NCBI GenBank assembly: GCA_017883075.1
Contig: JADGOI010000012.1
Location: 1-36,171, forward strand
Source of the DNA: Acidimicrobiales bacterium
GTDB lineage: Bacteria; Actinomycetota; Acidimicrobiia; Acidimicrobiales; RAAP-2
Length of the DNA: 36,171 bases
Direction of reading: 5' to 3'
Part shown: piece after piece, positions 23,025 through 34,368 of the stretch
How the letters are laid out: every line of letters begins with the position of its first letter
How positions within the stretch are numbered: the first letter of the stretch is position 1
Translations under genes and position numbers: made by a program
Notes under the pieces: generated by a model
Told to the model about the DNA's origin: nothing
Seen by the model: the letters and a program-made list of their open reading frames with translations, nothing else
The model's database searches: none

Positions 23025-24407
23025 ATGTCACACGGCTCCGGAGCAGTATTCGTGGATCTCGACAGGACCCTGCTCCGGTCAGCCAGCGGACCAGTGGTCC
23101 ACGCGGCCTTGGCGGCCGAGGGAGTGGTCAAGGAAGGCCAGCACCTGCCGGGGGAGCGGTACATGTACAGCTTCTACAACCGCTTCGGCGAATCGGCACC
23201 ATTCATCGGCCTGGCCCGGGCCGCGGCCCGGATGATGCGGAACCGGTCGGCCGACGCCACTCGCCAGGCCGGCAAACGGGCAGTGGAACAGCTGGTCGAC
23301 CTGGTACAGCCGTGGGCCCTCGAAGCGTTGGAGGTGCACCGTCGGCAAGGTCGCCCCCTGGTCCTCGCCACCACGTCGCCGTCGGATCTGGTGACGCCAC
23401 TGGCCGAGACCCTGGGCTTCGACGCCACCATCGCCACGCGGTACGAAGAGATCGAAGGCCGGTACACCGGTCGGTTGGACGGTGGGTTCGTGTGGGGAAC
23501 CGGCAAGCGACATGCGGTGCGCCAATGGGCCGATGCCCACGGTGTCGACCTGGCCGCTTCCCATGTCTACTCGGACAGCTTCTACGACCTGCCGCTCCTG
23601 ACCGCCGTCGGCCACCCCCACCCGCTCAATGCCGATCCCCGATTGGCCGTCGTCGCCGTGGCCCGGCGGTGGCCGCTCGAGTACTGGGACCGCCCTCCGG
23701 GAGTGCCGTCGCTGTTGGGCCTGGAGCCCTACCACCTGGCCCGGTTGATCTTCCGGGCCGAGGCATTTCCCTATGCCCGGTTCGATGTGGACGGCGTGGA
23801 TCACATCCCGAGGGAGGGACCGGTGCTCTTGGCCGCCAATCACCGCAGCTACTTCGACGTGGTTGCCGTTGGCCTGGTGGCGGCTCGCCTCAATCGGCCC
23901 GTGCGCTTCATGGCCAAACAGGAGATCTTCGACGCCCCGGTGGTCGGCCATCTGGCTCGGGCCCTGGGTGGCATCGCCGTTGACCGCGGCAGTGGATCCT
24001 CTGATCCGATGAGCCGGGCGAGCGCGGCACTGCGGGCCGGTGAGGTTGTCATCGTGTTGCCCCAGGGGACCATTCCCCGGGGGGATGCGTTCTTCGACCC
24101 GATCCTGTCCGGCAAGACCGGCGCCGCGCGGCTGGCCGCGGGGACCGGTGCACCACTGGTGCCCATCGGGGTGTGGGGCACCGAAGAGGTGTGGCCCCGG
24201 TCGTCGAAGTTGCCGAACATGACAGCCCTGGGCCATCCACCCATGGTCACCGTGCGGGTCGGGGCGCCTGTCGACCTGACCCATCACGATGCTGTGGCTG
24301 ATACCGAGACGCTGATGAGTGCGATCTCAGGATTGTTGCCGGAGGAGTCCCGGACGCAGCGGATTCCCACCAGTGAGGAACTGGCCCGCACGCAGCCCTC
24401 GGCGTGA
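23025..24407 (+). CDS. Bifunctional HAD-IB family hydrolase / 1-acyl-sn-glycerol-3-phosphate acyltransferase (PlsC) fusion
   Basis: N-term HAD VFVDLDRTLLRS, LATTSPSD, YSDSFYDLPLL; C-term PlsC LLAANHRSYFDVVAV (HX4D), VLPQGTIPRGDAFFDPIL. Confidence 0.93.
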   Translation: MSHGSGAVFVDLDRTLLRSASGPVVHAALAAEGVVKEGQHLPGERYMYSFYNRFGESAPFIGLARAAARMMRNRSADATRQAGKRAVEQLVDLVQPWALEALEVHRRQGRPLVLATTSPSDLVTPLAETLGFDATIATRYEEIEGRYTGRLDGGFVWGTGKRHAVRQWADAHGVDLAASHVYSDSFYDLPLLTAVGHPHPLNADPRLAVVAVARRWPLEYWDRPPGVPSLLGLEPYHLARLIFRAEAFPYARFDVDGVDHIPREGPVLLAANHRSYFDVVAVGLVAARLNRPVRFMAKQEIFDAPVVGHLARALGGIAVDRGSGSSDPMSRASAALRAGEVVIVLPQGTIPRGDAFFDPILSGKTGAARLAAGTGAPLVPIGVWGTEEVWPRSSKLPNMTALGHPPMVTVRVGAPVDLTHHDAVADTETLMSAISGLLPEESRTQRIPTSEELARTQPSA

Positions 24408-25744
24408 CCGGCCCCCACCCCCCAGCTACCCGCCGGCTCCCGTTTCGTCCCTCGGTAGCCGTGAAGGTGGCGTCAGGGATCAATCGGTTGTCCCGGCTGC
24501 TCGGGCGGGGCAGCGGTACCGTCATCGGCGGGAGGGCCGGGTTGGCCGTTGACCCCATGCTTCTGGCGGTATTGGCCAAGGACCGGGATGTCGCCCTCGT
24601 CTCGGGTACCAACGGGAAGACCACCACCACCGGGATGTTGGTGGCGGCCCTGTCCGAACCCGATTCGGTCGGAGTGGCCACCAACATCACCGGCGCCAAC
24701 ATGCCGGCCGGCCACGTGGCCGCCCTCATCGGGACCCGGCCGGTCGGGACGGTGGTACTCGAAGTCGACGAGGCGTATCTGGGTCGTCTCATCGAGGACA
24801 CCCACCCCCAAGTAGTGGTGCTCCTCAATCTGTCGCGGGACCAGCTCGACAGGATTTCAGAAGTCCGGATGCTGGTGGACCGGTGGCGGTCGGCGCTGGG
24901 ACGTCTCGACCCCGTTGGCCATGGCGGTTCGCGAACCGTGGTGGTGGCCAACGCTGACGACCCGATGGTGGTGTGGGCGGCATCCACCGCGCCGGAGGTG
25001 CGATGGGTGGGCGTCGGGCAGGTCTGGCACGACGATGCGGTCGGCTGTCCCGCCTGCGGTGCCCGCATCGTCTTTGAAGCGTCCGGGAGTTGGAACTGCG
25101 ATCATTGCGGATTTGGTCGGCCCGAACGGTTCGCGTGGTTGGAGGGAGATGTGCTCGTCTTGGCCGACGGACGTCGCTTTCCGGTGGTCATCGGGCTGCC
25201 CGGCCAGTTCAATCGGGCCAATGCGGCCATGGTGGCGGTGGCCGCACCGGAGTTCGCCGGAACCCACTGTCAACCGCCCGTATCCATCACCACCGCCGTG
25301 GAGCGACTGTCCAAGTTGCACGAAGTGGCCGGTCGCTTCTCAACGGTGCAACGGAAGGGACGGGATATCCGGCTGTTGCTGGCCAAGAACCCGGCGGGTT
25401 GGACTGCCATCTTCGACCTCCTCGGTGAATCGGGCGACCCCACCTCTCCGGTGGTGCTCTCCATCAACGCCCGGGTTGCCGACGGTTTCGATACCAGCTG
25501 GCTCTGGGACGTCCCCTTCGAGCGCCTGATTGGGAGGGCAGTGGTGGCTACCGGGGAGCGGTGCCGCGACCTCGCCGTGCGCCTCCGGTACGCCGAAGTG
25601 GACCACCGGGTGGTACCGGACGTGCTCGAAGCAGTGGACATGGCCATTGGGAACGCCGGCCGGTTGTCGGTGGCCAGCGCCTCGATACCGGTGGAGTTCC
25701 TCGGCAACTACACGGCTTTCGCCCAGTTGAGGAGCCGACTGTGA
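24404..25744 (+). CDS. murT: Lipid II isoglutaminyl synthase (glutamine-hydrolysing) subunit MurT (Mur ligase, DUF1727)
   Basis: DVALVSGTNGKTTTTGMLVAAL, LLNLSRDQLDRISEV, zinc ribbon CPACGARIVFEASGSWNCDHCGF; GTG overlaps the upstream stop by 4 nt; followed by gatD. Confidence 0.93.
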   Translation: MTGPHPPATRRLPFRPSVAVKVASGINRLSRLLGRGSGTVIGGRAGLAVDPMLLAVLAKDRDVALVSGTNGKTTTTGMLVAALSEPDSVGVATNITGANMPAGHVAALIGTRPVGTVVLEVDEAYLGRLIEDTHPQVVVLLNLSRDQLDRISEVRMLVDRWRSALGRLDPVGHGGSRTVVVANADDPMVVWAASTAPEVRWVGVGQVWHDDAVGCPACGARIVFEASGSWNCDHCGFGRPERFAWLEGDVLVLADGRRFPVVIGLPGQFNRANAAMVAVAAPEFAGTHCQPPVSITTAVERLSKLHEVAGRFSTVQRKGRDIRLLLAKNPAGWTAIFDLLGESGDPTSPVVLSINARVADGFDTSWLWDVPFERLIGRAVVATGERCRDLAVRLRYAEVDHRVVPDVLEAVDMAIGNAGRLSVASASIPVEFLGNYTAFAQLRSRL

Positions 25745-26553
25745 GCATGGCGAAGGGGGCGCGTTCGCCGTTGACGGTGGTGGTGATCTACCCCGATCTG
25801 CTGGGGACGTACGGGGATGGAGGAAACGGCCTGGTGTTGGCCCGGCGGGCCAAGTGGCGGGGCCTGGATGTGAGCCTCGTGCAGGCACCTTCCGACCGAC
25901 CGGTACCCCGCGGCGACATCTATTGCATCGGCGGTGGGGAAGACGGCCCGCAGGTGCGGGCGGCGTCCACCCTGATCGCCGACGGCACGTTGACGCGGGC
26001 GGTGGAGGATGGCGCGGTGATCCTGGGGGTATGTGCCGGTTTTCAACTTCTGGGTCGGGAGTTTCCCGACGCAGCCGATCGGCCTCACGATGGCCTCGGC
26101 CTGCTCGACGTGACCACCAGGAAGGGAACCGACCTTCGGGCGGTGGGCGAGTTGGTGGCCACGGTGGAACCCGACGCCCCCCGGGACCCGGACGGTTCGG
26201 CTCTCCCGGCCTTGACCGGGTTCGAGAACCACGGCGGCGTCACCACCATCGGTCCTGGGGCGTCACCACTGGCTCGAGTGATCACCGGGGTGGGCAATGG
26301 GGGCGGGGACGGGACCGAGGGGGCATGGAGTGGGCGGGTCATCGGCACCTACCTCCATGGCCCGGTACTGGCCCGCAACGTGGCGCTGGCCGACCTGCTG
26401 CTGGGATGGGCCCTGGTGTCCCGCGGGGAACGCCTCCCACTCGTCTGGCTCGAGGATGGCGAAGAGAATGCGCTGCGGGCCGAGCGCTTGGCCATGGCGG
26501 GAACCGTGAAGCTGTCGGCCCGTCTACGGCACGTTCCGCGACCCCGGCGCTGA
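25741..26553 (+). CDS. gatD: Lipid II isoglutaminyl synthase glutamine amidotransferase subunit GatD
   Basis: VVVIYPDLLGTYGDGGNGLVLARRAKWRG, IYCIGGGEDGPQ, VILGVCAGFQLLG (Cys nucleophile), GTYLHGPVLARN (His). Start trimmed from 25561 to GTG 25741 (4-nt overlap with murT). Confidence 0.93.
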   Translation: MSMAKGARSPLTVVVIYPDLLGTYGDGGNGLVLARRAKWRGLDVSLVQAPSDRPVPRGDIYCIGGGEDGPQVRAASTLIADGTLTRAVEDGAVILGVCAGFQLLGREFPDAADRPHDGLGLLDVTTRKGTDLRAVGELVATVEPDAPRDPDGSALPALTGFENHGGVTTIGPGASPLARVITGVGNGGGDGTEGAWSGRVIGTYLHGPVLARNVALADLLLGWALVSRGERLPLVWLEDGEENALRAERLAMAGTVKLSARLRHVPRPRR

Positions 26554-26558
26554 CGTCT

Positions 26559-27590
26559 TCAGTCGGACCGGTGTGGCCACTCGGTCCCATCCGAACCGGA
26601 GTGGGTCGGGTTCGTTTCGGGAAGGGCCCAGGACCGGCGCCAAGGGGCCACGTCGGGTCCCTGCAGCGGTGGCGTGGTTCCCGTCACTGACCGCTTCCGG
26701 GCCGTCCACCAGTCGGTGATGGTTTCATCGGCCAATGTGGCTACCGCCGACTCGATACGGAGCCCGAAACGACGGGCGTCCTCACCCTCTTCCGGCCACA
26801 ACGGGGTTCCGAAGGTCACCGTCGTACGGGTGCGCCGGATCCCTTTGCTCCCCTTGGGCAATACGTTCCCGGTTCCCTCGAGGTGGACCGGAACCACCGG
26901 GCGGTTGGTCTTCACGCTGAGGTATGCGGCGCCCCCGCGGAACGTCTGACCCCATCCATCGGGCGAGCGACCCCCTTCGGGGAAGATGATCAGGTTCCAG
27001 CCGTCGCCGACGAGATCGGCAGCGAGCTGGGCGGAACGACGGTTGACCTTGTTCCGTTCGATGGGAATGGCGGCGAGGGAGAAGGCGAAGAAGTCGGCCT
27101 TCCAGCGGCGGTCGAAGAAGTAGTCGGCCGCGGCCGCCACCACTGTCCGATGCCGGAAACGCAACGGCAGGCAGCTCATCAACAATGGGGTATCGATGTG
27201 GCTGGTGTGGTTGGCCGCGAAAATCACCGGTGCCCCGACATCGGTCAGGTACTCGTCACCCCGGATCAGGGGAGAGGCGATCACCCGGGCCAGGGGGCGG
27301 GTCACATTGTCGAGGACCATGGCCCGGGCCAGCCGTACCGGATACTTGCGCGACCAGCTGGTGTCATAGTCGACTCCCAGGTCGCGGTCGGGCGCCGGAC
27401 GCGGGACGTTCTCGGGCCAGCTGGGCGCGGCCAACGGAAATCTCCGATTGCCGGCGCGGGAGGCGATGCCGGTGGGGGAGTACCGCTTGAGGGTCGCGAC
27501 CGCCCGGCGCCGGTTGGTGCCGAGCGCGGCGTCGGCCCGAACGGCCCGAGTCTTCAGCAGCGATCGTGAGGACCCGTGTGTGGGTGTCAC
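26559..27590 (-). CDS. Lysophospholipid acyltransferase family protein (PlsC-like)
   Basis: VIFAANHTSHIDTPLL (HX4D), NLIIFPEGGRSPDGWGQTFRGGAAYLSVKTNRPVVPVHLEG. Confidence 0.92.
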   Translation of the reverse strand: MTPTHGSSRSLLKTRAVRADAALGTNRRRAVATLKRYSPTGIASRAGNRRFPLAAPSWPENVPRPAPDRDLGVDYDTSWSRKYPVRLARAMVLDNVTRPLARVIASPLIRGDEYLTDVGAPVIFAANHTSHIDTPLLMSCLPLRFRHRTVVAAAADYFFDRRWKADFFAFSLAAIPIERNKVNRRSAQLAADLVGDGWNLIIFPEGGRSPDGWGQTFRGGAAYLSVKTNRPVVPVHLEGTGNVLPKGSKGIRRTRTTVTFGTPLWPEEGEDARRFGLRIESAVATLADETITDWWTARKRSVTGTTPPLQGPDVAPWRRSWALPETNPTHSGSDGTEWPHRSD

Positions 27591-29176
27591 TGCACGTCCG
27601 ACATGAAGATCGGAGGGGTATGGATGTGGGTGAGGGTCGGCGAGGTCCCCACGATGTCATTGGCCATCTCGAGAGCGTCGGCCATGGTCGAGGCGACCCG
27701 AAAGCCGAGACGGTGGACGGCCGCTGGATCCCCACCCACAATGATCACCGCTCCCAGGTGTTGAAGTGCGTGAGCGCACCAGTACCACATGTAGAAGGGG
27801 TGGACACCGTGATAGGCGTGGCCGGTCCGGTAGAGGTGGATGTACCACGGATCGGTGGCGAATGATTCTTCGAATCCGTTGGCGATCTCGATGGGGTCGG
27901 TTGTCTCGCTCAAGACCTGTTCGAAGAAGTCGATGTAGCTCGGGTGATGGACCGGACTGAACTCCCACGGGGTCGGGTGGCTCATGATCACCACGCCGCC
28001 CTCGCGCACCAACGGTTTGCCCCGGTACATGTTGAAGAAATAGCCGAGACCGAGGCATGCCACCAGAATCGGGTTGAGGATCGAATTCACGTTGTACGGG
28101 CTGATGTAGGGGAGTCCCATCGACAGGATGTCGGTCTGGCCCTCTACGACCACGCCCTGCTGCTTCCAGACGTTGTCGGTGGTGACGGCGTGGACGGCTT
28201 CGACTTCACCGGCCTGAACCGATGTCATCCGGTGGGGCGCCTTCACCGAGTGGAAGACCTGCCGGGCGTACTTTGCCGGGGTGCGGTCCAGAACCTTCGA
28301 TGCACCCAGGTAGGCCAGGCGGTCCTTGACCCCCCATTCCCACTCGCGCTTCTGGAGAAAGTTGAAGGCCGGAGGGAACGCGTCGTTGTTGAGGTTGGTC
28401 TCGATTTGGAACACGTTGACGCCACTGTCGGCGATGAGTTTCCCCATGCGCCAGTTGGCCGAGTGCAACTCTGATTTGTGCTGGTCCATGAATGACCGGC
28501 TCCGTTGCATGGTCTGAGGATTGTGATGGTGGCGGAGGCTCTTGTAGCTGGCCAGACCGGTTGCGACGCTCTTGTGCCCGCCGTCCATCGCCACCAGGTT
28601 GATGTTGACGTAGACCAACAGGTCGCTTTCCGCCGCCCGCTTGTTGATCTCGACATCCTCGCCCTGGTCGGTGAGACCAAGGTGGACCAGGGCATCGGGA
28701 TCTTCGGCGTCGTGCTGGGTGAGGAGGCCGTTCGGGGCGAAGGCATCGTAGATCCGGTCGCCCAGGGCATGGCGGAGCTCGGGCTCGGTCATTCGACGGT
28801 GGAGGGCCAGGGCGACAATCAGTTCGACGTCGTCGACCCCGGCATCGGCGGCCATGTCGAGAACTTGTTCGATGACAAGTTGACGGATGTCCGGTCGTTC
28901 CATCGGAGGGAGGGGCAGCGAGATGTCATCGAAGGCGATCGTCAACTTCATGCCGGGGTGCAGCAGAGCCGGAAGCGGGTCCTTGTCGCCCAACGGGTGA
29001 CGCAACGCATGGCGGATGGCCGCCGACGGGTCGCCCAACGGGTCGAGGGGCTCGGGAGCGTAGATCACCCGACTCCCCTCGGGCAGGCGCTCCATCCTGA
29101 ACCGTTCACCGTGCCAATACAGGGTGGGCGGGGTGGAGCGGTCGACCTCGAGCACAAATCCGGGCCTGGGGCTCAT
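27587..29176 (-). CDS. Lactate racemase (LarA)-like / DUF2088 domain protein
   Basis: KLTIAFDDISLPLPPMERPDIRQLVIEQVLDMAADAGVDDVELIVALALHRRMTEPELRHALGDRIYDAF...MDGGHKSVATGLASYKSLRHHH is DUF2088/LarA-like. Confidence 0.85.
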   Translation of the reverse strand: MSPRPGFVLEVDRSTPPTLYWHGERFRMERLPEGSRVIYAPEPLDPLGDPSAAIRHALRHPLGDKDPLPALLHPGMKLTIAFDDISLPLPPMERPDIRQLVIEQVLDMAADAGVDDVELIVALALHRRMTEPELRHALGDRIYDAFAPNGLLTQHDAEDPDALVHLGLTDQGEDVEINKRAAESDLLVYVNINLVAMDGGHKSVATGLASYKSLRHHHNPQTMQRSRSFMDQHKSELHSANWRMGKLIADSGVNVFQIETNLNNDAFPPAFNFLQKREWEWGVKDRLAYLGASKVLDRTPAKYARQVFHSVKAPHRMTSVQAGEVEAVHAVTTDNVWKQQGVVVEGQTDILSMGLPYISPYNVNSILNPILVACLGLGYFFNMYRGKPLVREGGVVIMSHPTPWEFSPVHHPSYIDFFEQVLSETTDPIEIANGFEESFATDPWYIHLYRTGHAYHGVHPFYMWYWCAHALQHLGAVIIVGGDPAAVHRLGFRVASTMADALEMANDIVGTSPTLTHIHTPPIFMSDVQ

Positions 29177-30411
29177 CGGTTGTGTCCTTTCCGGTTGCGT
29201 AGATCAAAGACCACCTTCACCGCGCCGCGACGACCGGCCGCGCCGGCATGGACGAGAGCCTCTTCGTAGCGGTCGAGTGGATAGGCGGCAGAAACGAGGG
29301 AGCCGAGGCCGGCCTGGGTCACCAGGTCGATGGCGAGCTCAAAGGTGCGTCGAGGTTCGCCGCCCGGGCCGGTCGTCGACTCGGTGCCATAGGCGTAAGC
29401 GCCGACCAGGGTCAGCTCGCGGTGCCACAACGGGGCCAGGTCCACCGACACCTTGGCCGGCATGCCGACGACTACCACCCGCCCTCTGGGTCGGACCATG
29501 GCCAATGCCTGGGACAACGACTCGGACGAGCCCACACAATCGAAGACCACGTCGGCGCCACCGGTGAGCCGGCCGGCCAGCACCAGTGACCCGGCTTGTC
29601 GGCGCACCGCCCGGGCCAGTTGGTCGGGAGGGACGACTGTGTCCGCTCCCATTGCCTCGGCCACCCGTCGTTGATGGGGGTGTTTGGCACCGGCCAGCAC
29701 CGTGCACGAGGTGGCGGGTCGTATCAGATGATGCAGAGCGGCGATGGTGGTGAGCCCGAGCGTCCCCGCACCGATGACGGCCACGGAGTCACCGGGTTGG
29801 ATGTCACCGGACAGGGCGGCGTGCACCGCGCAGGCGGTCGGCTCGACGATGACCGCGTCCTCGTCGGAGAACCCGTCGGGGACGGCGTGGAGTTGGGAGC
29901 GATGGGCGACCAGGCCGGCCGCAGACCATCCGCCTCCGGTGTCGGCGCAGAAACCCGTCTGCAATCCCGGTGAGATCACTCCAAGGGCGAGGTTCCCGCA
30001 AAGCCCGTAGTGCCCCGACCCGCATTGAGGGCAAGGCGGCACGATGTGGCGGGGAGCACAGCCGAGGACGGGTTCGATGATGGCCCGTGTCCCGGGGGCC
30101 ATCACTGTTCCCGAATAGTCCACGCCTCCGCCGTCGAGGACCCCCACCACCTCGTGGCCGGGGACGAAGGGGAAGCTCACGATGTCCTCGAAGTACCGGG
30201 AGCTCCGGCCGTCGAGGGTGGCGAGATCAGACCCGCAGATACCCGAGAGCAGTGGCCGGAGGTGGAACCAGTCGGAGTCCGGGGCTTCGGGGGGCAATGC
30301 GTCCAACAGTTGAAGCGGCCCGATTCCCGCGCCCCGACCCGATCCGAAGACGGAGGCGACCCGGGAGGCGGCGAAGCGGGGAAGATTGCGCTCGAATACC
30401 AGAGCCTTCAT
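29173..30411 (-). CDS. Zinc-dependent alcohol dehydrogenase (MDR superfamily)
   Basis: LLSGICGSDLATLDGR, FVPGHEVVGVL, CPQCGSGHYGLCGN, VAVIGAGTLGLTTIAALHH, ADVVFDCVGSSESLSQALAMVRPRGRVVVVG. Start trimmed from 30564 to ATG 30411. Confidence 0.93.
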   Translation of the reverse strand: MKALVFERNLPRFAASRVASVFGSGRGAGIGPLQLLDALPPEAPDSDWFHLRPLLSGICGSDLATLDGRSSRYFEDIVSFPFVPGHEVVGVLDGGGVDYSGTVMAPGTRAIIEPVLGCAPRHIVPPCPQCGSGHYGLCGNLALGVISPGLQTGFCADTGGGWSAAGLVAHRSQLHAVPDGFSDEDAVIVEPTACAVHAALSGDIQPGDSVAVIGAGTLGLTTIAALHHLIRPATSCTVLAGAKHPHQRRVAEAMGADTVVPPDQLARAVRRQAGSLVLAGRLTGGADVVFDCVGSSESLSQALAMVRPRGRVVVVGMPAKVSVDLAPLWHRELTLVGAYAYGTESTTGPGGEPRRTFELAIDLVTQAGLGSLVSAAYPLDRYEEALVHAGAAGRRGAVKVVFDLRNRKGHNR

Positions 30412-32858
30412 CGGGCATCCTTGGCGGCCAGTCGGCGCACGGCTCCGGCCAGGGCGGCTGAGCTGGTACGACCCCGTTTGGCGGCGTCGCGGGTGTCGAG
30501 GGGTCCGATGGGAAGCATGGGTTGGGCGCCGCCGTCGGCCTTGTCCCAATGCTCGACGTGCCAACCACGCCGACGGGCGATGGCGGCGAGTTTGGTCTCG
30601 GGGTTGACCGCCACCGGGAAGCCCACCGCCTCGAGCATGGGGAGATCGCTGGCCGAATCGGCATACGCCATCGACTCGGACAGCTCGAGACCCTCGGCTT
30701 CGGCATAGTCGGCCAGCACCAGGGCCCGGGCTTCACCGATCGGGGGGAGCTCGGCCAGGCGCCCGGTGTACCGGCCGTCCTTTTGGCTCAGGCGGGCGCA
30801 CACGATTTCATCGAAGAGCGGACGGAGAGGCTCCACCACGAAATCAAGGGCCCCGGTGATGAGGATGGTGCGATGTCCGAGGGCCCGGTGCTTTCGCACC
30901 CGGGCGATGGCCGCCGGAAACGACTTGGCCAATAGCTGATGATGGAAGAGCTCCCAACCATCGTCGTGGAGCTGGTCCACCGGGGCGTCTTCGTAGCGTC
31001 GATAGAACGACCGGAGGAAGTCTCCCCGATCGCGTCGGTCGAGGGCGAGCAGCGACGGAGCTTTGCGAACCAGTCCGGCGATGAACGCCGCCCGTTCGCC
31101 GGCCCGAAGATGGCGCGAGGCCAGCCACGCGTAGGAGTCGACCACGTTGGAAGCGATGAGGGTGTTCTCGAGGTCGAAGGCGGCCAGGTGACGGTCGGGG
31201 GAGAGGATGGCCTTGCGGGCCCGATCGGCCCGGGAGGGTTGTATCGATCTGCCTGGGGTGGTCCTGACCCGGGCGTGTTCGACGATCGACGGGAGGTGAA
31301 TCTCGCGGACATAGTGGTCCCAGTCCACCGCGGCCGGGTCGAGACAGAGCATCTGGCGGTCGTCCTCGTCCATGCGGTCCCAGAGCGCCAGCAGGCGGTC
31401 GACCCGGTAGCGGGCCTCGGTCTCGGTGTAGGCGCCATACAGCTCGACGTAGCCGAGGGCCCGATCGGCCAACAGGTGTTTCTCTTCGAGGGCGGCCATC
31501 CACGCCGCCTGGCGGCCGCGGATGGGCAACGACCCGACCACCTTTTCGGCCATGTCCATCGCCTTGCTGGCCCGGGTCAGCTGATGTTGGACCCGGCCCC
31601 GACCCGGAAACGACCACTCGGGTACCACGATGGGTTGGCCGTCGGTGTCGTAGAGGGGATGTTCGGTGAACCACTCCCGGATGAGCTCGACCAGACGGCC
31701 GTAGTGGAACGGATTTCGGACCCCGGAAGCCACGTGGTAAACGCTCGGCCCTTCGTAGGGCCGTCCCTCGGCGGCGTGGAGGAGACTCTCTCCGCTGACG
31801 GCGATGATGGTGGCCACCACCAAGTCCACCGGAATGACGTCGGTCACTCCCTCGGGAACGCCGGGGAATTCCTTCAGCAGGCCGCGGGCGTAGGAGACGA
31901 TGATCGGCTCTGCCATCCGGAACCCTCGGATCCACCCTGGGCGGGGCTCGGCCAACGCCGACTCGATGATGGACGGACGGACGATGGTGATGGGAATGAG
32001 GTCCCCGTACTGGGAGATGAGGGCTCGCTCACCGAGGGCCTTCGTATAGGGATAGGCGTCGGGCCAACCCAGTGATTGGGCCCGGACCTTCCCGATCTCG
32101 ACCAGCTGCTTCTTGACCCAGTCCTCGCGAAGTCGCTCGGCGCGCTCGGCCAACAGATGGAGCCCGGCCCCACCCAATTCGCTGCGGGCCGCCTTCGAGA
32201 ATGCGCGTAGTCGCTCGGGCCGGCGGGATTCGGCCTCGCTGTCGCCACGTTGGCGCCGGGCCGCGTCCACCTCACTCTTCCACGCCACGTCGAGGCTGAA
32301 CCGGTTGCCCTCGAGCAGTTCTTCTTTGGCCTCTCCCTGGTGGGTTCCGGCCACGTAGGCGGTGGAGACCGGGATGAAATGGACGGGCCCCACCCGACCT
32401 TCCGCCGCGGCCGCGTCCCGGGCAGCCACCATGGCCTCGGCCACCCTCGAGGGCCCGAGCAAGTTGACCTCGACCGCGGCATCGAGGGGGGAGTCGAAAC
32501 TGACCGACGCCGCCGAATGGATCACGATGTCGCACCGCGACAACTGTCGTCGTCCCTCTTCGTCGAGGCCCAGCCCGTCGGTACCGACGTCGCCGGCCAC
32601 GGCCGTCATTCGGCTGGCCACCTGGGTCTCGAACTGATCGCCACGCTCGTGGCGGAGCCGATCGAAACAATCGTTCTTCAGGATCTCCTTGGTGGCCCGC
32701 TGCATCGGTGTCGAACGGCGGGTCGGCCGGATGAGGAGTACGACCTCGCAATCGGGAACACTGCGCAACAATCTCTCCACCAGGGCCGTTCCCAGAAACC
32801 CGGTGGCTCCGGTGATAAAGAATCGTTTGCCGCCGAGGGCGCCACGAACACGGGTCAC
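30408..32858 (-). CDS. Fatty acyl-CoA reductase (NAD_binding_4/Male-sterility SDR) - HAD-IB hydrolase fusion
   Basis: N-term KRFFITGATGFLGTALVERLLRS, HSAASVSFD, DAYPYTKALGE (YxxxK), IVRPSIIESAL; C-term HAD LAAFDLENTLIASN, ILITGALDFVVEPL, YADSASDLPMLEAVG. Confidence 0.92.
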   Translation of the reverse strand: MTRVRGALGGKRFFITGATGFLGTALVERLLRSVPDCEVVLLIRPTRRSTPMQRATKEILKNDCFDRLRHERGDQFETQVASRMTAVAGDVGTDGLGLDEEGRRQLSRCDIVIHSAASVSFDSPLDAAVEVNLLGPSRVAEAMVAARDAAAAEGRVGPVHFIPVSTAYVAGTHQGEAKEELLEGNRFSLDVAWKSEVDAARRQRGDSEAESRRPERLRAFSKAARSELGGAGLHLLAERAERLREDWVKKQLVEIGKVRAQSLGWPDAYPYTKALGERALISQYGDLIPITIVRPSIIESALAEPRPGWIRGFRMAEPIIVSYARGLLKEFPGVPEGVTDVIPVDLVVATIIAVSGESLLHAAEGRPYEGPSVYHVASGVRNPFHYGRLVELIREWFTEHPLYDTDGQPIVVPEWSFPGRGRVQHQLTRASKAMDMAEKVVGSLPIRGRQAAWMAALEEKHLLADRALGYVELYGAYTETEARYRVDRLLALWDRMDEDDRQMLCLDPAAVDWDHYVREIHLPSIVEHARVRTTPGRSIQPSRADRARKAILSPDRHLAAFDLENTLIASNVVDSYAWLASRHLRAGERAAFIAGLVRKAPSLLALDRRDRGDFLRSFYRRYEDAPVDQLHDDGWELFHHQLLAKSFPAAIARVRKHRALGHRTILITGALDFVVEPLRPLFDEIVCARLSQKDGRYTGRLAELPPIGEARALVLADYAEAEGLELSESMAYADSASDLPMLEAVGFPVAVNPETKLAAIARRRGWHVEHWDKADGGAQPMLPIGPLDTRDAAKRGRTSSAALAGAVRRLAAKDAR

Positions 32859-32868
32859 CAGATCTGTC

Positions 32869-32880
32869 TACCATATGGTA
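32869..32880. promoter_or_regulatory. Perfect 12-bp palindrome TACCATATGGTA between the FAR-HAD and TetR genes (operator candidate)
   Basis: TACCATATGGTA in the 23-bp gap between divergent GTG starts; a second 8-bp palindrome, CAGATCTG, lies at 32859-32866. Confidence 0.7.
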
Positions 32881-32881
32881 A

Positions 32882-33565
32882 GTGACCAAGTCGAGCGCCC
32901 CATCAGAGAGTGCAGCAGGCCGGGACAGGGGTCGGCCCCGACCCATGCCGACCAGTAACGGGGTGGCCGACGAGACGAGCACCCCGGCCCGCATCCTCGA
33001 CGCTGCTCTCGTCTCGTTCGCCACCCGTGGATATGAGGCCACCTCGCTCGACGCAGTGGCGGCGGGTTTGGAAGTGCGCAAACAGACGATCCTCTACTGG
33101 TTTCCATCGAAGGAAGTTCTCCTCGATGCGGTGATCGACCGGAGCGCCATCGAATTGTCCGAGGCATTGGAAGGATCTCTGGCCACCGCCGGCACCGGAT
33201 GGGTTCAGGTCGAGGCCGTGGTGCGCTCGGTGTTCAGGTTGGCGGCCCGACAGCCTGAGCTGTTGGGGCTGGTCCGGGAGATGGGGCGACTGGGCCCGCC
33301 GGCGGCGACCCGGTTCGTGGCTGCACTGGAGCCTCTGGTCAGACGCGCCTCGGAGTTTCTGGGGGCCGAGATGGATTCGGGTCACATGAGACGTCACGAG
33401 CCCCGTCTTCTGCTCTTGGCCATCTACTCCACCGTCATCGGGATGCTCACCGAGGTCGAGTTGCTTCGCGCCCTCGGTGAAGAGCCGACAGCCCGGTCAT
33501 TGGTCCGTCGGCGGGCGGAGATCCTCGACCTGTTGCGGTCGGCGTTGGTCACCAACCCAACGTAA
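32882..33565 (+). CDS. TetR/AcrR family transcriptional regulator
   Basis: TPARILDAALVSFATRGYEATSLDAVAAGLEVRKQTILYWFPSKEVLLDAVIDRS is a TetR HTH. Alternative starts: ATG 32945 or GTG 32963. Confidence 0.92.
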   Translation: MTKSSAPSESAAGRDRGRPRPMPTSNGVADETSTPARILDAALVSFATRGYEATSLDAVAAGLEVRKQTILYWFPSKEVLLDAVIDRSAIELSEALEGSLATAGTGWVQVEAVVRSVFRLAARQPELLGLVREMGRLGPPAATRFVAALEPLVRRASEFLGAEMDSGHMRRHEPRLLLLAIYSTVIGMLTEVELLRALGEEPTARSLVRRRAEILDLLRSALVTNPT

Positions 33566-33594: not shown

Positions 33595-34368
33595 TCAGTC
33601 GGAAGCGGCGGCTTTGCGTGCGCGCCGCGACGGCTTGGGTGGAGGAGGGAGCGGGCGTTTGGGGGTGTATCGCTTGTTGCCGGCCGGTGCGGGCGGCCCT
33701 TTTGACCGGGGTCCCCCGCGGGCAGTCGCGGTAGACGGACGGGGTGAGCCAGCCGGGCGCGATCCAGATGAGGATCGAGTCCTCGGAGCGGCTCTGGCCT
33801 CCCGGATCTTGCCCGCCGTCTCACGTTGGATCTTGTAGGAGCGGTACAACAGCCAAACGGCCAGGGCGAAGAACGGCAAACCCAAGAACAGAAACGATCC
33901 TCCGAATGCCGCGCCCGTGAACAACGCCACGAATCCGGCTGGGGCCCGGCGGCCCAAGATGGTGGCGGCGATCAACAACCCGGCGGCAACGAGCCCCACG
34001 ATCAGCGTCGTCTGCGGGGTGATCTGTCCCTTGGCCAATCGAAAGTTGTGGTTTTGGGTCTCGGCCAGGTAGATGATGACGCCGAAGAGGGCCGCTCCAC
34101 CGGCGGCGGCGAACGAGAAGCGCTTCTCCCGCTCGTCCAAGCGGTCGATGGCCCACTTGGTCGAGAAGCTGGATTGACCCGGTTCGATATTGGCGGACTG
34201 GACGCTGGCCCGAACCCGGTCGAGTCGCTTCGCCTTGCCGGTGGGTGCCTCTGCCGGGTCGGTCCCGTCCTCGTCTCCGATGGCGTTCTCGAACTCCTCG
34301 TGGAGAGACTCGTCATCTTCCACTTCGTCAGCCATGGAGTCGTCGAGGTCGCGATCCTTCGGGCTCAT
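33595..34368 (-). CDS. Multi-TM hypothetical membrane protein with acidic N-terminus and basic/Pro-rich C-tail
   Basis: FSFAAAGGAALFGVIIYLAE, TTLIVGLVAAGLLIAATILG, AGFVALFTGAAFGGSFLFLGLPFFALAVWLLY; tail NKRYTPKRPLPPPPKPSRRARKAAASD. Confidence 0.75.
   Translation of the reverse strand: MSPKDRDLDDSMADEVEDDESLHEEFENAIGDEDGTDPAEAPTGKAKRLDRVRASVQSANIEPGQSSFSTKWAIDRLDEREKRFSFAAAGGAALFGVIIYLAETQNHNFRLAKGQITPQTTLIVGLVAAGLLIAATILGRRAPAGFVALFTGAAFGGSFLFLGLPFFALAVWLLYRSYKIQRETAGKIREARAAPRTRSSSGSRPAGSPRPSTATARGGPRSKGPPAPAGNKRYTPKRPLPPPPKPSRRARKAAASD

Follow-up and report, generated by a model that had tools for sequence, protein, structure and literature searches.

A conserved TetR-linked actinobacterial operon with a LarA-like nickel-pincer protein and its possible role in ether-lipid formation

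What does a LarA-like nickel-pincer protein do among lipid genes? The question is raised by a 36,171-nucleotide stretch of DNA from an Acidimicrobiales bacterium (the window; contig C27 of a 2.8 Mb assembly in 232 contigs), in which the ORF listing shows positions 26559-32858 filled by four minus-strand genes for a FAR-HAD fusion, a Zn-dependent alcohol dehydrogenase (ADH), a LarA-like protein and a PlsC acyltransferase. We propose, with a probability of about 0.5, that they form a TetR-controlled actinobacterial operon for a glycerophospholipid bearing a reduced (alkyl) chain, with a 1-O-alkyl (plasmanyl) ether lipid as the likeliest product.

The cassette and its divergent regulator

The following features of the window are concerned.

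30408..32858, minus strand: FAR-HAD fusion, 816 aa; SDR-type fatty acyl reductase, FAR_C-like region, then a HAD-IB domain
29173..30411, minus strand: Zn-dependent MDR alcohol dehydrogenase, 412 aa from ATG, polyol-dehydrogenase-like (PF08240/PF00107)
27587..29176, minus strand: LarA homologue of the LarAH14/15/16 family, 529 aa (NF052592; PF09861 Lar_N)
26559..27590, minus strand: PlsC-type acyltransferase, 343 aa, GTG start (PF01553)
32867..32882, strand not given: putative TetR operator TCTACCATATGGTAAG, one base away from TCTACCAnnTGGTAGA
32882..33565, plus strand: divergent TetR-family regulator (PF00440), whose start is possibly further downstream

A first-pass annotation had described three ATGA overlaps between the four genes. 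The 4-nt overlap was found at each junction, but only two of them are ATGA; the LarA/PlsC overlap (27587-27590) is GTGA, with the GTG start of PlsC. The domain calls of that annotation were all recovered (PF07993 plus HAD, Zn-ADH, PF09861 Lar_N and PF01553). No defence-system match was found.

The reductase part of the fusion matched PF07993 (Pfam, E 6e-57), and the HAD part matched PF12710/TIGR01490, with TIGR01490 107 bits over cutoff (NCBIfam). The match to PF03015 (FAR_C/Sterile) was weak (E 2e-7, 31.5 bits versus a cutoff of 35.4). Residues 7-531 aligned to the fatty acyl-CoA reductase of PDB 7eoz. TGxTGFxG, Y269 and K273, together with D562, D734 and D738 of the HAD domain, are conserved in the alignment. 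Position 564 is Glu in 33 sequences and Asp in 12, and because the HAD domain is thus often DxE, its phosphatase activity is uncertain. For the ADH, the top NCBIfam matches were polyol and threonine dehydrogenases, all far under cutoff; C59, H86, E87, E190 and C118/C127/C130/C138 are conserved in the alignment. Both HAD and ADH are members of broad families. The PlsC protein matched PF01553 (E 3e-19) and carries the NHx4D and FPEG motifs in the conserved forms NHxSHxD and FPEGxRSxDGW.

The region between FAR-HAD and the divergent regulator was also compared among loci of the same order. Of 13 intergenic regions between a divergent TetR and FAR, 10 to 11 held a TACCA-TGGTA palindrome. Among 118 genomes from the order, 27 contained the exact motif TCTACCAnnTGGTAGA, versus 1 for the reversed control. 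It stood directly before FAR-HAD in 26 of the 27 loci, with a divergent TetR beside the site in 25 of these 26; the remaining locus was a glycosyltransferase-like gene region. The TetR protein would presumably bind this putative operator.

Distribution of the arrangement

A gene-neighbourhood survey showed that the FAR-HAD/ADH/LarA/PlsC order is widespread and not unique to this genome. The LarA protein was matched in 50 of 61 relatives, and the order of the four genes was kept in 20 order-level loci from 19 families, most of them with a divergent TetR and three of them missing the ADH. Across the phylum, LarA scored over the family cutoff in 86 of 396 genomes, and the cassette order recurred in 12 further families, Rubrobacter exceptions aside. 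A scan of GTDB contigs confirmed at least 573 relatives. The best 80 of these were all actinobacterial, including Frankia, Nocardioides, Actinomadura, Kribbella, Actinopolymorpha, Phytohabitans and Streptomyces, and nearly all of the 80 kept the cassette order; gaps were mostly contig ends, the exception being a locus without a PlsC match (L125). With recurrences in about 120 loci of the phylum, coincidence falls far short of explaining the arrangement. The cluster was missing from more distant LarA relatives (L102-L115), which scored under the family cutoff, and their neighbourhoods gave no functional clue.

Overlaps were common at every junction, and the exact 4-nt overlap was seen at HAD/ADH in 83 of 113 loci and at LarA/PlsC in 46 of 97. 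All five domains were present in 99 loci, where their pairwise distances were correlated with r of 0.86-0.94, a value to which shared ancestry alone contributes. The conserved order, coupling, co-divergence and dedicated operator therefore support the co-translated lipid operon that had been proposed from the window, and no characterised set of the four homologues with another role was found. In the literature searched, no description was found of a conserved and regulated lipid operon that includes a likely NPN enzyme. Its novelty is limited for Rubrobacter, whose operon was possibly already proposed in a 2023 paper: the abstract of Sinninghe Damste et al. 2023 reportedly mentions, for five Rubrobacter species, a putative operon that would make 1-O-alkyl glycerol phosphate.

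The LarA-like protein and its cofactor

The LarA-like protein scored 889 bits against NF052592 (LarAH14/15/16, cutoff 740), a full-length match that places it in the family holding groups 14 and 15 of Desguin et al. 2020, and only 74 bits against the lactate racemase family NF033504 (cutoff 460). D84, H126, K202 and H217/H218 are invariant in the alignments, so that the NPN-anchoring Lys (K202) and the Ni-binding His (H217/H218) are kept. In contrast to lactate racemase, in which a second His and a carboxylate-binding Arg are found, the protein keeps H126 but, when aligned with PDB chains, shows N193 at the His174 position and L87 at that of Arg75. The other aligned cluster members likewise have Asn at the second catalytic His site and Leu or Ile at the Arg75 site.

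The AF2 model (pLDDT 93) gave its best PDB matches with 9q3k and 9q3j (TM 0.72-0.86). Together with 9q2u, these structures represent the single-histidine LarA proteins of Blautia wexlerae and Streptococcus plurextorum, the closest solved fold. They share with our protein an Asn where the second catalytic His would be (the residue to which N193 aligns), the conserved NPN Lys and the Ni His. They differ in having only 20-24% identity in the fold alignment, Lys rather than Leu at the Arg75 site, and a suggested context of carbohydrate metabolism.

LarA groups 14 and 15 have been noted as lacking His174 (PMC12611868). The tested LarAH14 comes from Frankia, a carrier of the same cluster, and none of the racemase activities tested was detected (PMC7583248). 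This null assay fits an unfamiliar substrate, but equally a failed assay. The cluster-type members described here are distinguished by their tie to a lipid operon; in the literature searched, no substrate was assigned to these members and no link between LarA and lipids was found.

As had been remarked earlier, none of larB, larC and larE was seen in the window. A search across the rest of the genome located larB, larC and larE, all on contig C206. In other genomes, larB/C/E genes lie alongside the cluster in 29 loci, and all three are present in 26 of the 29. The larB/C/E genes, present here and adjacent to the cluster in other genomes, together with the retained cofactor-anchoring residues, make it likely that the protein uses the NPN cofactor. 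Its proposed action on a 2-hydroxy-acid finds no support and is, if anything, somewhat disfavoured, since two lactate-racemase residues, the Arg that binds the carboxylate and the second catalytic His, are replaced in the aligned cluster members.

Ether-lipid context and the proposed pathway

The Rubrobacter version of the cluster bears on the kind of lipid that is made. In 7 of the 9 Rubrobacteraceae loci, PlsY (PF02660) lies immediately upstream of FAR-HAD, and no PlsC match was found in the nine; the FAR-HAD part was missing or cut off in two. Three Rubrobacter loci have a protoglobin gene between ADH and LarA (L093 10804-11394, L094 and L100). R. xylanophilus DSM 9941 (G100), reportedly among five species analysed for lipids, has one strong PF07993 match in its genome, the cluster FAR. 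Other Rubrobacter genomes have a second NAD_binding_4 match; the one inspected, in G253, proved to be an NRPS-type thioester reductase and not a FAR. Searches of R. xylanophilus found neither a DUF2229 glycerol ester reductase (Ger/PlsA) nor AGPS, although a divergent enzyme could escape both; its three FAD-oxidase_C proteins carry the GlcD-type GEHG and not the HHH of AGPS. The cluster is a candidate answer to how Rubrobacter, with neither known route detected, makes abundant ether lipids. Ether-linked lipids are reported to make up about 46% of the core lipids of Rubrobacterales (PMC10821996, citing PMID 36868099).

The AGPS route shares the presumed product class with the cluster. The genome studied here has a true AGPS homologue on contig C122 with an SDR just upstream (L282 8360-11000), a conventional-looking ether-lipid pair. 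Only in four genomes of the window's order (G043, G047, G050 and G434) is AGPS close to the cluster, about 5 kb or less from its TetR/FAR end, and it is not part of the conserved cluster. These AGPS genes support an ether-lipid setting and lessen the case for LarA as the obligatory ether-bond former. An AGPS-like gene is present in 7 of 10 named carriers as well as in this genome, and because such genes coexist with the cluster, LarA need not form that bond. Among the 396 genomes of the phylum, AGPS was found in 8 of 86 carriers versus 70 of 310 others (Fisher p 0.006), an anti-association given little weight since the genomes are related and 7 of the 10 named carriers have an AGPS-like gene. 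The Ger/PlsA route also lies outside the conserved cluster: its DUF2229 enzyme was found in 0 of 6 genomes, this one included, while four control genomes gave a match. Genes for D-Ala-D-Ala ligase and a MurF-like protein lie between the cluster end and AGPS at L277 10347-12850 and L032 11738-14268.

The myxobacterial elb genes (ElbB HAD, ElbD FAR-ACS-ACP-AT, ElbE SDR) likewise bring FAR, HAD, acyltransferase and oxidoreductase together, and their reported role is in alkyl ether lipids. The first-pass annotation had described ElbD as containing reductase, HAD and PlsC domains. It does have FAR and acyltransferase domains, along with acyl-CoA synthetase and ACP, but HAD is a separate protein, ElbB (PMC9131029). 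The four cassette proteins contain no AMP-binding or ACP domain, so they are not an ElbD-type fusion. They also differ from elb in the FAR fused to HAD, in an MDR ADH instead of an SDR, and in the LarA enzyme, none being described for elb.

Indirect support for the ether-type lipid of the first-pass annotation thus comes from the Rubrobacter PlsY, from the four genomes of the order in which AGPS adjoins the cluster, and from the richness of Rubrobacterales in ether lipids; we regard an ether lipid as the best-supported product. In the pathway that we infer, FAR-HAD would reduce acyl-CoA to fatty alcohol, and the operon's own glycerol-phosphate acyltransferase (PlsC in most carriers, PlsY in Rubrobacter) would supply or complete the backbone. 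The polyol-type ADH may interconvert the C2 hydroxyl and ketone of a glycerol-phosphate lipid. The single-histidine LarAH14, supplied with NPN by LarB/C/E, could perform hydride chemistry at glycerol C2 and might even permit exchange of acyl for alkyl where no AGPS exists. In the boldest form, LarAH14 would itself be an NPN-dependent ether-bond former: it would take the hydride off C2 of 1-acyl-glycerol-phosphate, at the ketone stage the alcohol made by FAR would take the place of the C1 acyl group, and return of the hydride would give alkyl-glycerol-phosphate without AGPS or Ger. We consider this step distinctly doubtful; if true, it would put the NPN cofactor to a new use.

Other products can be drawn from the same genes. 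Diol lipids are made in the phylum, for example by Thermoleophilum, and in a 2-hydroxy-lipid or long-chain 1,2-diol pathway LarAH14 would epimerise or isomerise a 2-hydroxyacyl chain, FAR would yield the diol and PlsC would acylate it. LarA chemistry takes place at a 2-hydroxy carbon, NCBIfam names the family hydroxyacid isomerase, and FAR with PlsC could assemble such a lipid. We nevertheless hold this pathway to be unlikely, given the Leu/Ile and Asn at the Arg75 and His174 sites, the Rubrobacter PlsY, which acylates glycerol-3-phosphate, and the fact that no fatty-acid 2-hydroxylase was recognised among recurrent cluster neighbours. PlsY would also be left without a role, as would the NPN enzyme, if the FAR-made alcohol were free or esterified by the PlsC-like enzyme as a storage wax with LarA and ADH for tailoring. 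The FAR domain does match fatty acyl-CoA reductase, and in one relative (L283) AGPS has a WS/DGAT gene as its neighbour; but the bacterial wax synthase is WS/DGAT, not PlsC (PMC11948995), and it was not seen within the conserved cluster in the loci surveyed. We regard wax ester or free fatty alcohol as a very unlikely product.

LarAH14 might instead epimerise C2 of the (alkyl)glycerol-phosphate backbone and in this way decide between sn-1 and sn-3 stereochemistry. C2 inversion via transient oxidation is known chemistry of the superfamily (PMC7583248), and PMC10821996 assigns no stereochemistry to the Rubrobacter ether lipids. However, a single catalytic His impairs the racemase mechanism, and PMC12611868 suggests one-way action at most, so we find the epimerase very doubtful. 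Another specialised lipid, head group or secreted lipid unrelated to ethers would agree with a LarAH14 group without assigned substrate, with HAD and ADH from broad families and with the diversity of the carriers. It appears quite unlikely in view of acyltransferase partners of glycerolipid types and of R. xylanophilus, for which no known ether-lipid enzyme was found.

The proposed alkyl-glycerophospholipid operon offers a concrete pathway hypothesis for an uncharacterised nickel-pincer group, set in a context conserved across the phylum, with a regulator and putative operator of its own and with neighbouring cofactor genes. Lipids of this kind would be expected in Frankia, Nocardioides, Kribbella and Actinomadura; to our knowledge ether lipids have not been reported from these genera, and routine fatty-acid analysis could miss them.

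Further genes flank the operon in the window. A second HAD-PlsC fusion gene (23025-24407, plus strand), with a canonical DxD HAD, lies near the cluster in several order-level relatives as well. Between it and the cassette, 24404-26553 encodes homologues of MurT and GatD (lipid II amidation); the listed start of the GatD ORF, 25561, is probably placed too far upstream. The protein adjoining the TetR gene (33595-34368) is without a Pfam or NCBIfam match, and weak matches to it occur beside TetR in some relatives.
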